This document shows, piece after piece, positions 6,910 through 10,403 of a stretch of DNA of 64,000 bases. Numbering within the stretch: the first letter of the stretch is position 1; every line of letters starts with the position of its first letter. The notes beneath the pieces are model-generated. The model ran no database searches. It was not told the DNA's origin and worked only from the letters and a program-made list of their open reading frames with translations. Source of the stretch: Comamonas terrae (GTDB lineage: Bacteria > Pseudomonadota > Gammaproteobacteria > Burkholderiales > Burkholderiaceae_C); assembly GCF_001544075.1 (NCBI RefSeq), contig NZ_BCNT01000003.1, positions 186,001 to 250,000 on the forward strand, read 5' to 3'. A program made the position numbers and the translations under genes.

Positions 6910-7035
6910 ATGAAGCCACCGTTTCCGATCCTCCTGATTGGCCTGGCCCTCACCCTGGCCGCCTGCAACACCGTCAAGGGCATTGGCCAGGACGTGCAAA
7001 GCGCAGGCAGCGCCATCGAGCGCGCCGCTCGCTGA
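6910..7035 (+). CDS. Entericidin A/B-like small lipoprotein
   Basis: This 41-residue open frame has a signal sequence and the lipobox LAAC (residues 16-19). The mature part is only 23 residues: [20 protein letters not shown] and three more. That matches the entericidin (EcnA/EcnB) pattern of CNT.KG.G.D....G. Entericidins are tiny membrane lipoproteins described as a toxin/antidote pair in enterobacteria. Here there is a single copy between leuC and leuD with gaps of 28 and 26 bases, so it is probably co-transcribed with leucine biosynthesis. Why it sits there is unknown. Confidence 0.85.
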
Positions 7036-7837: not shown

Positions 7838-8914
7838 ATGAAGATCGCAGTGTTGCCCGGAGACGGCATCGGCCCCGAAATCGTCGCGGAAGCCGTCAAG
7901 GTGCTCGAAGCCCTGAACCTGGGCCTGGAAATGCAGACAGCCCCCGTGGGCGGCGCCGGCTATGAAGCCGAAGGCCATCCGCTGCCGCCCGCCACGCTCA
8001 AGCTGGCGCAGGAAGCCGACGCCATCCTGTTCGGCGCCGTGGGCGACTGGAAATACGACACGCTGGACCGCCCCCTGCGCCCCGAACAGGCCATCCTGGG
8101 CCTGCGCAAGGCCCTGGGCCTGTTCGCCAACTTCCGCCCCGCCATCTGCTACAAGGAACTGACCCATGCCTCCAGCCTCAAGCCCGAGCTGGTCGCGGGC
8201 CTGGACATCCTCATCATCCGCGAGCTGACCGGCGACATCTACTTCGGCCAGCCGCGCGGCCGCCGCAGCGCTCCCGACGGCCACTTCCCCGGCGCCGAGG
8301 AAGCCTTCGACACCATGCGCTACACCCGTCCCGAGATCGAGCGCATCGCCCACGTCGCCTTCCAGGCCGCGCAAAAGCGCAGCAAGCGCGTGACCAGCGT
8401 GGACAAGGCCAACGTGCTCGAAACCTTCCAGCTGTGGAAGGACGTGGTCACCGAAGTCGGCAAGCAGTACCCCGACGTGGCGCTGGACCACATGTACGTG
8501 GACAACGCCGCCATGCAGCTGGTCAAGGAGCCCAAGCGCTTCGACGTGGTGGTCACCGGCAACATGTTCGGCGACATCCTGTCCGACGAGGCCTCGATGC
8601 TCACCGGCTCCATCGGCATGCTGCCCTCGGCCTCGCTCAACGACAGGAAGCAGGGCCTGTACGAACCCAGCCACGGCTCGGCGCCCGACATCGCCGGCAA
8701 GGGCATCGCCAACCCGCTGGCCACCATCCTGTCGGCCGCGATGATGCTGCGCTTCTCGCTGAACCAGGAAGCCGCCGCCCAGCGCATCGAAGCCGCCGTG
8801 CAGAAGGTGCTGGCCAAAGGGTTGCGCACCGCCGACATCTACAGCGAAGGCACGACCAAGGTTTCCACCCGCGAAATGGGTGACGCCGTGGTCCGGGCGC
8901 TGGCCGAAGTCTGA
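7838..8914 (+). CDS. leuB: 3-isopropylmalate dehydrogenase
   Basis: LeuB (358 aa) oxidatively decarboxylates 3-isopropylmalate to 2-oxoisocaproate with NAD, the third leucine-pathway step. Motifs include [16 protein letters not shown] at the N-terminus, [25 protein letters not shown], the metal-binding [12 protein letters not shown] (about residues 245-257) and [19 protein letters not shown] clear ribosome-binding site (AAAGGA) precedes the ATG. It ends the leuC-leuD-leuB group; a 10-bp stem-loop follows. Confidence 0.98.
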
Positions 8915-8926
8915 GCCACCGGCACC

Positions 8927-8957
8927 GCAAAGGCCGAGGCCAGCTCCCGGCCTTTGC
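8927..8957 (+). terminator. Stem-loop after leuB, possible terminator
   Basis: A perfect 10-bp stem (GCAAAGGCCG / CGGCCTTTGC) with an 11-base loop begins 13 bases past the leuB stop. It lacks a T run, so it may protect the 3' end or aid Rho-dependent termination rather than act as a classical terminator. Confidence 0.5.
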
Positions 8958-8974
8958 AGCAGATCATGTTTTCG

Positions 8975-8995
8975 GACGTTTTTGATCAAAACGTC
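8975..8995. promoter_or_regulatory. Inverted repeat upstream of the asd leader
   Basis: GACGTTTT (8975-8982) and AAAACGTC (8988-8995) flank TGATC, giving a near-perfect operator-like palindrome. It lies in an AT-rich island about 30-50 bases before the best promoter-like sequence. The cognate protein is unknown. Confidence 0.4.
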
Positions 8996-9021
8996 AAAAA
9001 TAAATCACAAATTTCGACGAT

Positions 9022-9078
9022 TTGACTATTGCATAAAGCACATTTAACAAACTGTGCTTTTACCGCAGTCGCTACAAT
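9022..9078 (+). promoter_or_regulatory. asd: Candidate asd promoter region
   Basis: TTGACT (9022-9027) and TAACAA (9045-9050) are 17 bases apart and resemble sigma-70 elements. A second -10-like hexamer, TACAAT, lies at 9073-9078, only ten bases before the ATG of the leader frame, without an obvious -35. An 8-bp stem (AAAGCACA 9035-9042 / TGTGCTTT 9053-9060) overlaps the first promoter. The region is markedly AT-rich for this genome. Confidence 0.4.
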
Positions 9079-9088
9079 CACAGCTCTT

Positions 9089-9196
9089 ATGTTTGCCGCC
9101 CGCCCTTTCCTCGCTGAAACCGCAGCACCCGCAGCCTCTGCCGGTGTGGACGTGCGCGCGCAAATCGTTAAGACCATTAAGACGATTACAGGCTGA
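9089..9196 (+). CDS. Putative asd leader peptide rich in Lys/Thr/Ile codons
   Basis: This 35-codon frame starts ATGTTTGCC and ends in QIVKTIKTITG followed by TGA. The last nine codons include two Lys, three Thr and two Ile, using ATT, ACA and ACG codons that look uncommon in this GC-rich genome. It lies 94 bases upstream of asd, whose enzyme serves the lysine, threonine, methionine and isoleucine branch. Alternative hairpins follow directly. The composition recalls the enterobacterial thr operon leader. No ribosome-binding site is evident, so a leaderless transcript or an internal GTG start (9146 or 9152) is possible. Peptide synthesis is inference. Confidence 0.5.
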   Translation: MFAARPFLAETAAPAASAGVDVRAQIVKTIKTITG

Positions 9197-9243
9197 CCCA
9201 GCCCGGTTCGTCGTGCGCCCCTGATCCGGCCAGACGAGCCGGA
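9191..9243 (+). promoter_or_regulatory. asd: Alternative hairpins (possible attenuator) before asd
   Basis: Three competing stems are visible. C is GGCTG/CAGCC (9191-9203), overlapping the leader stop codon. A is CCGGTTCGTC (9203-9212) with GACGAGCCGG (9233-9242), 10 bp with one G-U pair. B is TCCGGC (9225-9230) with GCCGGA (9238-9243). A and B share bases and exclude each other. There is no T run, so control could be Rho-dependent or act on translation. A small hairpin (9275-9289) also holds the asd ribosome-binding GGG in its loop. Confidence 0.45.
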
Positions 9244-9290
9244 CGAAGCAGTCTCAAGCTACTGTTTTCAAAACTGAAAGGGCGTTTCAA

Positions 9291-10403
9291 ATGAGCAAGC
9301 AACTGGTTGGTTTGGTAGGCTGGCGCGGCATGGTCGGTTCCGTGCTGATGGACCGCATGCAGGCCGAGGGCGACTTCGAGCTGATCGAGCCGGTCTTCTT
9401 CTCCACCTCCAATGCCGGCGGCAAGGCCCCGTCCATGGCCAAGACCCACACCCAGCTCAAGGATGCCAACGACATCGCCGAGCTGGCCAAGTGCGACATC
9501 ATCATCACCTGCCAGGGCGGCGACTACACCAAGGAAGTCTTCCCCAGGATCCGCGCCGCCGGCTGGAACGGCCACTGGATCGACGCCGCCTCCTCGCTGC
9601 GCATGGAGAGCGATGCCGTCATCGTGCTGGACCCCGTCAATGAAGACCTGATCAAGCAAAAGCTCGCCGCCGGCGGCAAGAACTGGATCGGCGGCAACTG
9701 CACCAACTCCATCCTGCTGATGGGCCTGGGCGGCCTGTTCAAGGCCGGCCTGGTCGAGTGGGTTTCCTCCATGACCTACCAGGCTGCCTCGGGCGGCGGC
9801 GCCAACCACATGCGCGAGCTGCTCAAGGGCATGGGCGTGGTGCACGCCGCCGTGGCCGATGAGCTGGCCACGCCTGCCTCCGCCATCCTGGAGATCGACC
9901 GCAAGGTGGCCGCCACCATCCGCGAGGACGTGCCCACCGAATTCTTCGGCGCCCCGCTGGCCGGCGGCCTGATCCCCTGGATCGACGCCCAGCTGGACAA
10001 CGGCCAGTCCAAGGAAGAATGGAAGGGCCAGGCCGAGGTCAACAAGATCCTGGGCACCGAAGCCACCATTCCCGTGGACGGCCTGTGCGTGCGCATCGGC
10101 GCCATGCGCTGCCACTCGCTGGCGCTGACACTCAAGCTCAAGAAGGACCTGCCGCTGGCCGAGATCGAGGCCCTGATCCGGAGCGGCAACCCCTGGGTCA
10201 AGTTCGTCGCCAACGAGCGTGCGCTCACCGTCAAGGAACTGACCCCTGCCGCCGTGACCGGCGGCCTCGAAGTGGCCGTGGGCCGCGTGCGCAAGCTCAA
10301 CATGGGCCCCGAGTACGTGTCCGCCTTCGTGATCGGCGACCAGCTGCTGTGGGGCGCCGCCGAACCGCTGCGCCGCATGCTGCGCATCCTGCTGGCCGCC
10401 TGA
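9291..10403 (+). CDS. asd: Aspartate-semialdehyde dehydrogenase
   Basis: Asd (370 aa) reduces beta-aspartyl phosphate to aspartate semialdehyde with NADPH, the branch point to lysine/diaminopimelate, threonine, methionine and isoleucine. The N-terminal dinucleotide-binding segment is [19 protein letters not shown]. The catalytic cysteine lies in [16 protein letters not shown] (about residue 135), and the dimerisation-domain segment [20 protein letters not shown] is present. It matches the gammaproteobacterial-type enzyme in length. The AAAGGG ribosome-binding site lies eight bases before ATG. A possible attenuation leader precedes it. Confidence 0.97.

Follow-up and report, generated by a model that had tools for sequence, protein, structure and literature searches.

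The gap between leuB and asd in Comamonas terrae contains a 35-codon frame (9089-9196) that, by sequence comparison, is one case of a family-wide element. This element is probably a ribosome-mediated attenuator of asd, a candidate whose control codons would read the supply of threonine, isoleucine, and lysine. We examined the locus within a 64,000-nucleotide stretch of DNA, hereafter the window. The gene upstream of the gap we take to be leuB, and the one downstream, placed by its position and relatives, presumably encodes aspartate-semialdehyde dehydrogenase (asd), whose pathway feeds lysine, threonine, isoleucine, and methionine. The gap is 376 bases long, as originally reported, and its description as AT-rich is correct in a relative sense only (52.7% GC versus 66% for the window). 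The original prediction read it as an attenuation leader for asd, and the codon run and competing stems described below support that reading. Features beyond that prediction are a -10 box just before the leader ATG, a form in which the codons lie on the tail of LeuB, and the spread across the family. Farther upstream, between genes that we presume to be leuC and leuD, a 41-codon ORF (6910-7035) has a lipoprotein-type start and is presumably entericidin-like.

Table 1. Features of the leuB-asd region, in window coordinates
Feature	Position	Strand	Description	Basis
leuB (assumed)	7838..8914	+	358 aa; in other genera the control codons sit on the LeuB C-terminal tail	
-10 box	9073..9078	+	TACAAT, 10 nt before leader ATG	predicted RNA start within a few nt of ATG
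Leader ORF	9089..9196	+	35 codons + TGA, probably leaderless	translation MFAARPFLAETAAPAASAGVDVRAQIVKTIKTITG
Control codons	9164..9190	+	I V K T I K T I T	T/I/K run of relatives
P0	9191..9203	+	hairpin around stop codon, GGCTG 9191-9195 with CAGCC 9199-9203	swap test not significant
Strand A	9202..9212	+	5' arm of H1, CCCGGTTCGTC	pairing and covariation
Anti-Shine-Dalgarno strand	9216..9220	+	CGCCC	complementary to GGGCG 9280-9284
Strand B	9226..9230	+	5' arm of H2, CCGGC	pairing and covariation
Strand C	9233..9242	+	GACGAGCCGG, 3' arm common to H1 and H2	pairing and covariation
H3	9245..9269	+	A/T-rich spacer hairpin, 9245-9252 with 9261-9269	window fold
asd Shine-Dalgarno region	9276..9284	+	GAAAGGGCG, including GGGCG 9280-9284	complementary to 9216-9220
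asd (assumed)	9291..10403	+	370 aa	position and relatives

asd loci were collected from contigs of named genomes (the best 80 of 595) and from further genomes of the genus and family; the asd start could not be placed in 6/231 loci. A leader was scored where an ORF ending 40-190 nt before asd has at least six T/K/I among its last 12 residues. Of 203 distinct pre-asd stretches, 156 pass, 47 score 4 or less (3 of them having no ORF end in range), and none scores 5; other families are included here, hence these counts give no prevalence figure. With a Ralstonia case set aside, the 155 remaining loci comprise 110 free-standing small ORFs, typically MFAARPFALNTATAALAGVAVRAITTKTTTIKG, and 45 C-terminal tails of LeuB. 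The median distance from leader stop to asd is 94 nt. Ten loci were dropped by hand beforehand because the sequence preceding asd was too long or doubtful or the locus was truncated or odd, and the non-redundant set used below contains 105 leaders, 70 free-standing and 35 LeuB-fused.

A covariance model of the tail, the stop codon, and stem H1 has a single strong hit in the window's genome, located at asd (7e-15); the three that follow are at 0.29 or worse. Across the family it matches 243/299 genomes at an E value of 0.01 or better (118/141 genera; 225/267 good genomes), and for the 40 matches set against asd coordinates by eye, the position is always upstream of the gene and on its strand. 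A search of 300 genomes across the order gave nine matches below 1e-12, all in the Comamonas family. Weak matches outside it (8 sites, 7 genomes) were rejected and are taken as chance, since the flanks fetched for these 8 loci contain no asd gene. As a negative control, 41/41 loci from the order search (40 genomes) score 5 T/K/I or less in the last 12 residues; the control began with 47 loci, from which three pairs were removed, belonging to the window's family, to the small family f14, and to the leader-bearing Burkholderiaceae-type genomes. The same leader was also sought at hom in the window's genome and rejected, the 3.5 kb around homoserine dehydrogenase holding no Thr/Lys/Ile-tailed ORF of at least 18 residues. 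This absence at hom, like the lack of Met among the control codons, counts against the attenuator reading.

The leader frame closes with ...QIVKTIKTITG followed by TGA, exactly as first described, and provides an upstream short ORF with codons for end products of the regulated pathway, a defining mark of an attenuator. The codons ATT and ACA, suspected of being rare, are indeed so in five neighboring genes (6.4% of Ile and 5.3% of Thr codons, respectively), as is AAA (7.8% of Lys). The codon run is kept among relatives: over the eight codons before the last codon in the 105 leaders, T/I/K account for 770/840 (Thr 410, Ile 180, Lys 180, all others 70). Selection of leaders for T/K/I tails inflates these totals, Lys and Ile being part of the rule, and still leaves room for Asn or Met elsewhere in the tail. 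The first base is A in 775/840 tail codons. A nucleotide constraint of this kind alone would also admit Asn, Ser, Arg, and Met, and these are nearly absent (Asn 0, Ser (AGY) 2, and Met 3 of 840, though Met is itself a product of the asd pathway), which argues that the amino acid itself matters. On this comparison of sequences, the control codons are selected as amino acids, with Lys 180 versus Asn 0 and Ile 180 versus Met 3.

Substitution patterns separate the tail from the rest of the leader. Over 605 leader pairs, tail differences fall on codon positions 1/2/3 in 423/927/397 of 1747 cases and are mostly T/K/I exchanges. Because T, I, and K swap, the tail pN/pS is 1.33 in frame, with 1.58 and 0.19 in the other frames. 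For the leader body the values are 0.84 in frame and 0.87 and 0.80 in the other two. dN/dS as proof of coding thus failed for the body, where the wrong frames give about the same value, so the argument for coding rests on Lys versus Asn and Ile versus Met. The combination of a constrained tail and an unconstrained body indicates conservation of the control codons without conservation of the peptide itself; the expected conservation of the open frame therefore holds for the frame and fails for its body as a peptide.

These patterns bear on two readings in which the leader product, or the act of its translation, would matter in other ways. A conserved small protein, or an ORF that merely couples starts and senses no amino acid, would account for the MFAARPF start seen again across genera; with body pN/pS at 0.80-0.87 in all three frames and the body missing from the LeuB-fused form, we consider it very improbable. 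Somewhat less remote, and still improbable, is a nascent-chain arrest peptide in the manner of SecM-secA, by which the peptide rather than missing charged tRNA would halt the ribosome. The C-terminal position of the tail, a position common to LeuB tails, and the Gly or Ser that is the last residue in most copies would suit such a peptide. However, an arrest motif would not be expected to exchange T, I, and K for one another at a given position, as the tail does, or to follow an unconstrained body, and P0 pairing may be what keeps the last codon (judged by eye; the P0 swap test was not significant).

Between the leader stop and asd, strand C can pair with either strand A (H1) or strand B (H2), and the two stems are mutually exclusive. 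The hairpins originally proposed at 9191-9203 and at 9203-9212 with 9233-9242 are found at those places, and the third is present as 9226-9230 with 9238-9242, one pair shorter than in the proposed version (9225-9230/9238-9243). H1 was recovered unaided by RNAalifold from 60 sequences. In H1, 96.4% of cells are paired, versus 33%-63% in slid versions, and 0/500 shuffles are as high in pairing or covariation score; weaker measures are that pair types are no higher than in shuffles (307/500) and that sliding by +2 raises the both-side changes from 9 cells to 11. H2 is likewise paired in 96.4% of cells (slid versions, 2%-69%), with 0/500 shuffles as high for both scores, and all its both-side changes fall in one pair (464/500 shuffles as high). 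Both stems are thus kept and covary beyond shuffles, as the conservation of stems foreseen in the original prediction would have it, with the caveat that kinship among sequences can by itself produce scores above every shuffle, even where no structure exists.

When partners were exchanged between genomes, pairing weakened for A:C (z = -7.4; free-standing -6.4; fused -2.0, a weak signal reached by 52/2000 permutations) and for B:C (z = -2.6). For loop:SD the value is -3.0 over all sequences and -1.7 and -1.6 within the two layouts, with the control pairing A:SD at -1.5; for P0 it is -1.4 (105 sequences), not significant. The cuts used for these swaps were checked by eye in the 105 sequences: strand A is right in all, and six mis-cuts of strand C were kept (L025, L027, L064, L073, L182, and L199). 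The second mark of an attenuator, mutually exclusive RNA structures between leader and gene, is thereby present, with the weaker measures given above. That the frame, codon run, and hairpins recur across genera, with 0/500 shuffles matching H1, makes the element more than chance. A chance ORF in an intergenic gap, which has its small size and nothing else to recommend it, is left with practically no probability by the model matches in 118/141 genera, the covariation of H1 and H2, and the 41/41 control loci at 5 T/K/I or less; we regard it as already refuted.

A further pairing is possible between the CGCCC strand and GGGCG in the asd ribosome site. Here, 80.3% of cells are paired versus 33%-71% in slid versions, and 6/500 shuffles are as high. 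Covariation is weak (score reached by 25/500 shuffles), the outermost pair is absent in 42/104, and the register of the anti-SD strand is shifted by one base in 36/105 (column 67). Some fused copies have a longer, different complement to the SD (by eye; loop-to-tail swap z = -5.9 in the fused set). GAAAGG is the part of the site expected to pair with the 16S end, so the GCG behind it is free of that duty, which fits the anti-SD pairing. A small hairpin that had been proposed to expose the GGG of the ribosome site is predicted in the window as TGAAA/TTTCA, either unbound or with a ribosome six codons before the stop; by eye, most other genera have not retained its 3' arm.

From the computed conservation, codon make-up, -10 placement, H1/H2 pairing and covariation, and mean opening-cost shift, we infer a leaderless start, ribosome stalling, and a direction of control, with an effect on translation rather than on termination. 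In this model, transcription would start at or just before the leader ATG, as placed by the -10 box, and in LeuB-fused genomes the ribosome finishing leuB would read the same codons. With charged Thr-, Ile-, and Lys-tRNA plentiful, the ribosome would reach the stop codon and cover the 5' part of strand A, leaving C to pair with B; with H2 formed, free CGCCC could pair with GGGCG of the asd ribosome site and little asd would be translated. If any of the three amino acids were short, the ribosome would wait upstream on the codon run and A would pair with C, locking part of the anti-SD strand inside H1 and allowing translation of asd. Ribosomes slowed by shortage of Thr, Ile, or Lys would thus probably turn asd on.

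We modeled this switch by folding the 105 RNAs with the bases under the ribosome forced open. The cost of opening the asd start with the stop codon in the A site, minus that with the ribosome six codons upstream, has a mean of +1.44 kcal/mol. The gain exceeds 0.3 kcal/mol in 68/105 (49/70 free-standing, 19/35 fused) and is at or below 0.3, or negative, in 37/105; when the RNA from stop to ribosome site is shuffled, the mean gain is -0.01, with eight replicate means from -0.12 to 0.14. Mean costs for free-standing copies are 8.83 at the stop, 6.76-7.14 upstream, and 7.49 without a ribosome, and for fused copies 10.09, 8.62-9.55, and 9.52, respectively; the window gives 8.4 at the stop, 4.6 at six codons upstream, and 6.0 naked. 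The mean unpaired probability of the ribosome site in the fused set scarcely changes, being 0.46 at the stop and 0.46-0.47 upstream.

Best folds of 13 chosen RNAs were also inspected for a clean switch, defined as a ribosome site masked at the stop and H1 formed with the ribosome six codons upstream. Three show it (L089, L143, and L207), and L203 switches only at three codons upstream. Five have a closed fold in every state (L060, L063, L205, L213, and L220). Four keep half of H1 at the stop, with the site masked otherwise or not (L001, L002, L117, and L122, the window included), and with the ribosome nine codons upstream the best fold of the window pairs the anti-SD strand again. The naked RNA is closed in some copies and open in others. 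The modeled effect on opening cost is, on average, beyond chance, and the off state described above is tentative in its details.

The same element could instead act on transcription, the ribosome position setting a terminator (H3 plus a T run) or a stop by Rho on the untranslated RNA before asd. The classical thr, trp, and his leaders use transcription attenuation, and a clean switch of the ribosome site appears in only the three of 13 single folds. Of the 70 free-standing copies, moreover, 25 have 5-7 consecutive T as their longest run from strand C to asd, and 20 have a hairpin at or below -8 kcal/mol ahead of T4+, where it could be a terminator; by eye, many free-standing copies have a hairpin at the place of H3. 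However, window positions 8900-9330 hold no terminator-like site (shuffles, mean 0.8) and so lack the intrinsic terminator before the gene that marks a transcription attenuator, and LeuB-fused copies are mostly devoid of terminator-like hairpins (2/35 at -8). In the window, H3 lies outside both H1 and H2 and would not be reached directly by the switch, which counts against termination. We therefore judge termination to be rather unlikely, yet a live rival at least in some relatives, and SD masking to be the best-supported output. Of the two options first suggested, Rho-dependent or translational control, the latter fits the anti-SD/SD complementarity and the lack of a terminator in the window, and is weakened by a clear site switch in only part of the sequences and by the terminator-like hairpins of the 20/70 free-standing relatives.

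The leader probably also has an unusual start. A hexamer matching TATAAT at five or more of six positions lies within 3-17 nt of the ATG in 67/70 free-standing leaders (TACAAT in 46), compared with a mean of 3.2 and a maximum of 9 in 200 composition shuffles. Its spacing to the ATG is 6-10 nt in 65/70, with a mode of 8. Given the usual distance from a -10 box to the RNA start, this near-fixed spacing suggests that the RNA begins within a few nucleotides of the ATG and that the leader ORF is probably leaderless. A scan of the window for paired -35 and -10 elements found none.

In 35/105 non-redundant copies (45/155 loci), LeuB itself ends in the codon run, typically ...MGDAVVAAITKKTITG, and the leader body is absent. 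On a LeuB tree of 64 rows, in which Comamonas testosteroni is closest to the window (97% identical), assigning a fused, a free-standing, or no leader to the rows takes 8 changes, and the fused state by itself takes 4, of which at least two are forced by well-supported branches. By this tree, the two layouts interchange. Three Aquabacterium loci (L070, L076, and L078), where LeuB ends ...LKAQ, ...MKSQG, or ...LKAQG with no codon run, appear to have lost the leader. Two types of Asd, about 90% and 70% identical to that of the window, stand behind the same leader in one bacterial family. Compared with the window, Hydrogenophaga L063 is 86% identical in LeuB and only 71% in Asd, and Ralstonia L059 is 79% identical in LeuB and 84% in Asd. 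This discord suggests that a different asd gene took the place of the old one behind a leader that persisted.

T/K/I-rich ORFs, scored here over 15 residues, also precede asd outside the family. In the Burkholderiaceae-type family f32, such an ORF ends 81-90 nt before asd in 31/48 loci and is missing from 17, with a tail such as ...ITIKTITPKTITKR; Ralstonia L059 and 3/3 genomes of f14 have one 74-82 nt before asd. The RNA that follows these ORFs differs from that of the Comamonas family, f32 showing one hairpin at the stop codon and another, large one formed by CUUCCCCGC/GCGGGGAAG. This second, differently folded T/K/I leader upstream of asd is seen in L283, L284, L299-L315, L262, L263, and L329 (Burkholderiaceae-type and f14). 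One reduced genome of about 1.2 Mb (L347) has an asd leader tail TATIILTRKTIKT and a hairpin at the Burkholderia-type place with a quite different sequence. The f32-type and Comamonas-family leaders may share ancestry or may have converged.

Rfam covariance models at gathering score gave no match in the window or in 10 related loci, and identity with the thr operon leader (thrL-thrABC, which we take to be RF00506) was rejected on that search. The asd leader resembles the enterobacterial threonine operon leader in having a short Thr/Ile-rich ORF, an aspartate-family gene, and alternative hairpins after the ORF. It differs in the gene controlled (asd), the added Lys codons, the SD-masking partner, and a probably leaderless start, as well as in having neither a terminator in the window nor an Rfam match. 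In erm-type translational attenuators, a ribosome on the leader frees the masked SD of the next gene, as proposed here for asd; unlike the asd leader, these depend on antibiotic-induced arrest and have no amino-acid codon run. In SecM-secA, a ribosome held at the C-terminal codons of the upstream gene alters a hairpin masking the SD of the next, a layout shared by the LeuB-fused form. SecM, however, is an arrest peptide sensing export, whereas the codons of the asd leader suggest sensing of charged tRNA.

The trpL leader of Sinorhizobium meliloti differs from the asd leader in its Trp codons, and we know of no fusion of trpL-trpE(G) to an upstream enzyme. In this system the first bases of the RNA are reported to be the ATG of the leader sORF, so that it may be a leaderless mRNA, and control is by transcription attenuation, a further difference (PMC7298713). 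The asd leader is similar in its probable RNA start at the leader ATG. Among the papers listed by searches of a literature collection that covers subscription journals poorly, none concerns an asd leader peptide by title or abstract start, and we found no description of asd control in Burkholderiales.

Considered as a whole, the comparison allows a broader proposal, to which we give roughly even credence. In this proposal, asd is governed by an attenuator with three control amino acids and an interchangeable sensor, either a leaderless mini-ORF or the LeuB tail. The tail would have no enzymatic role and would serve only as a gauge of ribosome speed, tying asd to leuB translation and to Thr/Ile/Lys supply; it would have outlasted a replacement of the asd gene downstream, and would have arisen or diverged separately, with a different RNA fold, in Burkholderiaceae-type genomes. 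If true, two things would be unusual: an enzyme whose tail bears the control codons of an unrelated gene, and a leader probably starting at about the first base of its RNA. The routes to lysine, threonine, isoleucine, methionine, and the cell-wall precursor diaminopimelate part at asd, and the element makes the control of asd in Burkholderiales directly testable.
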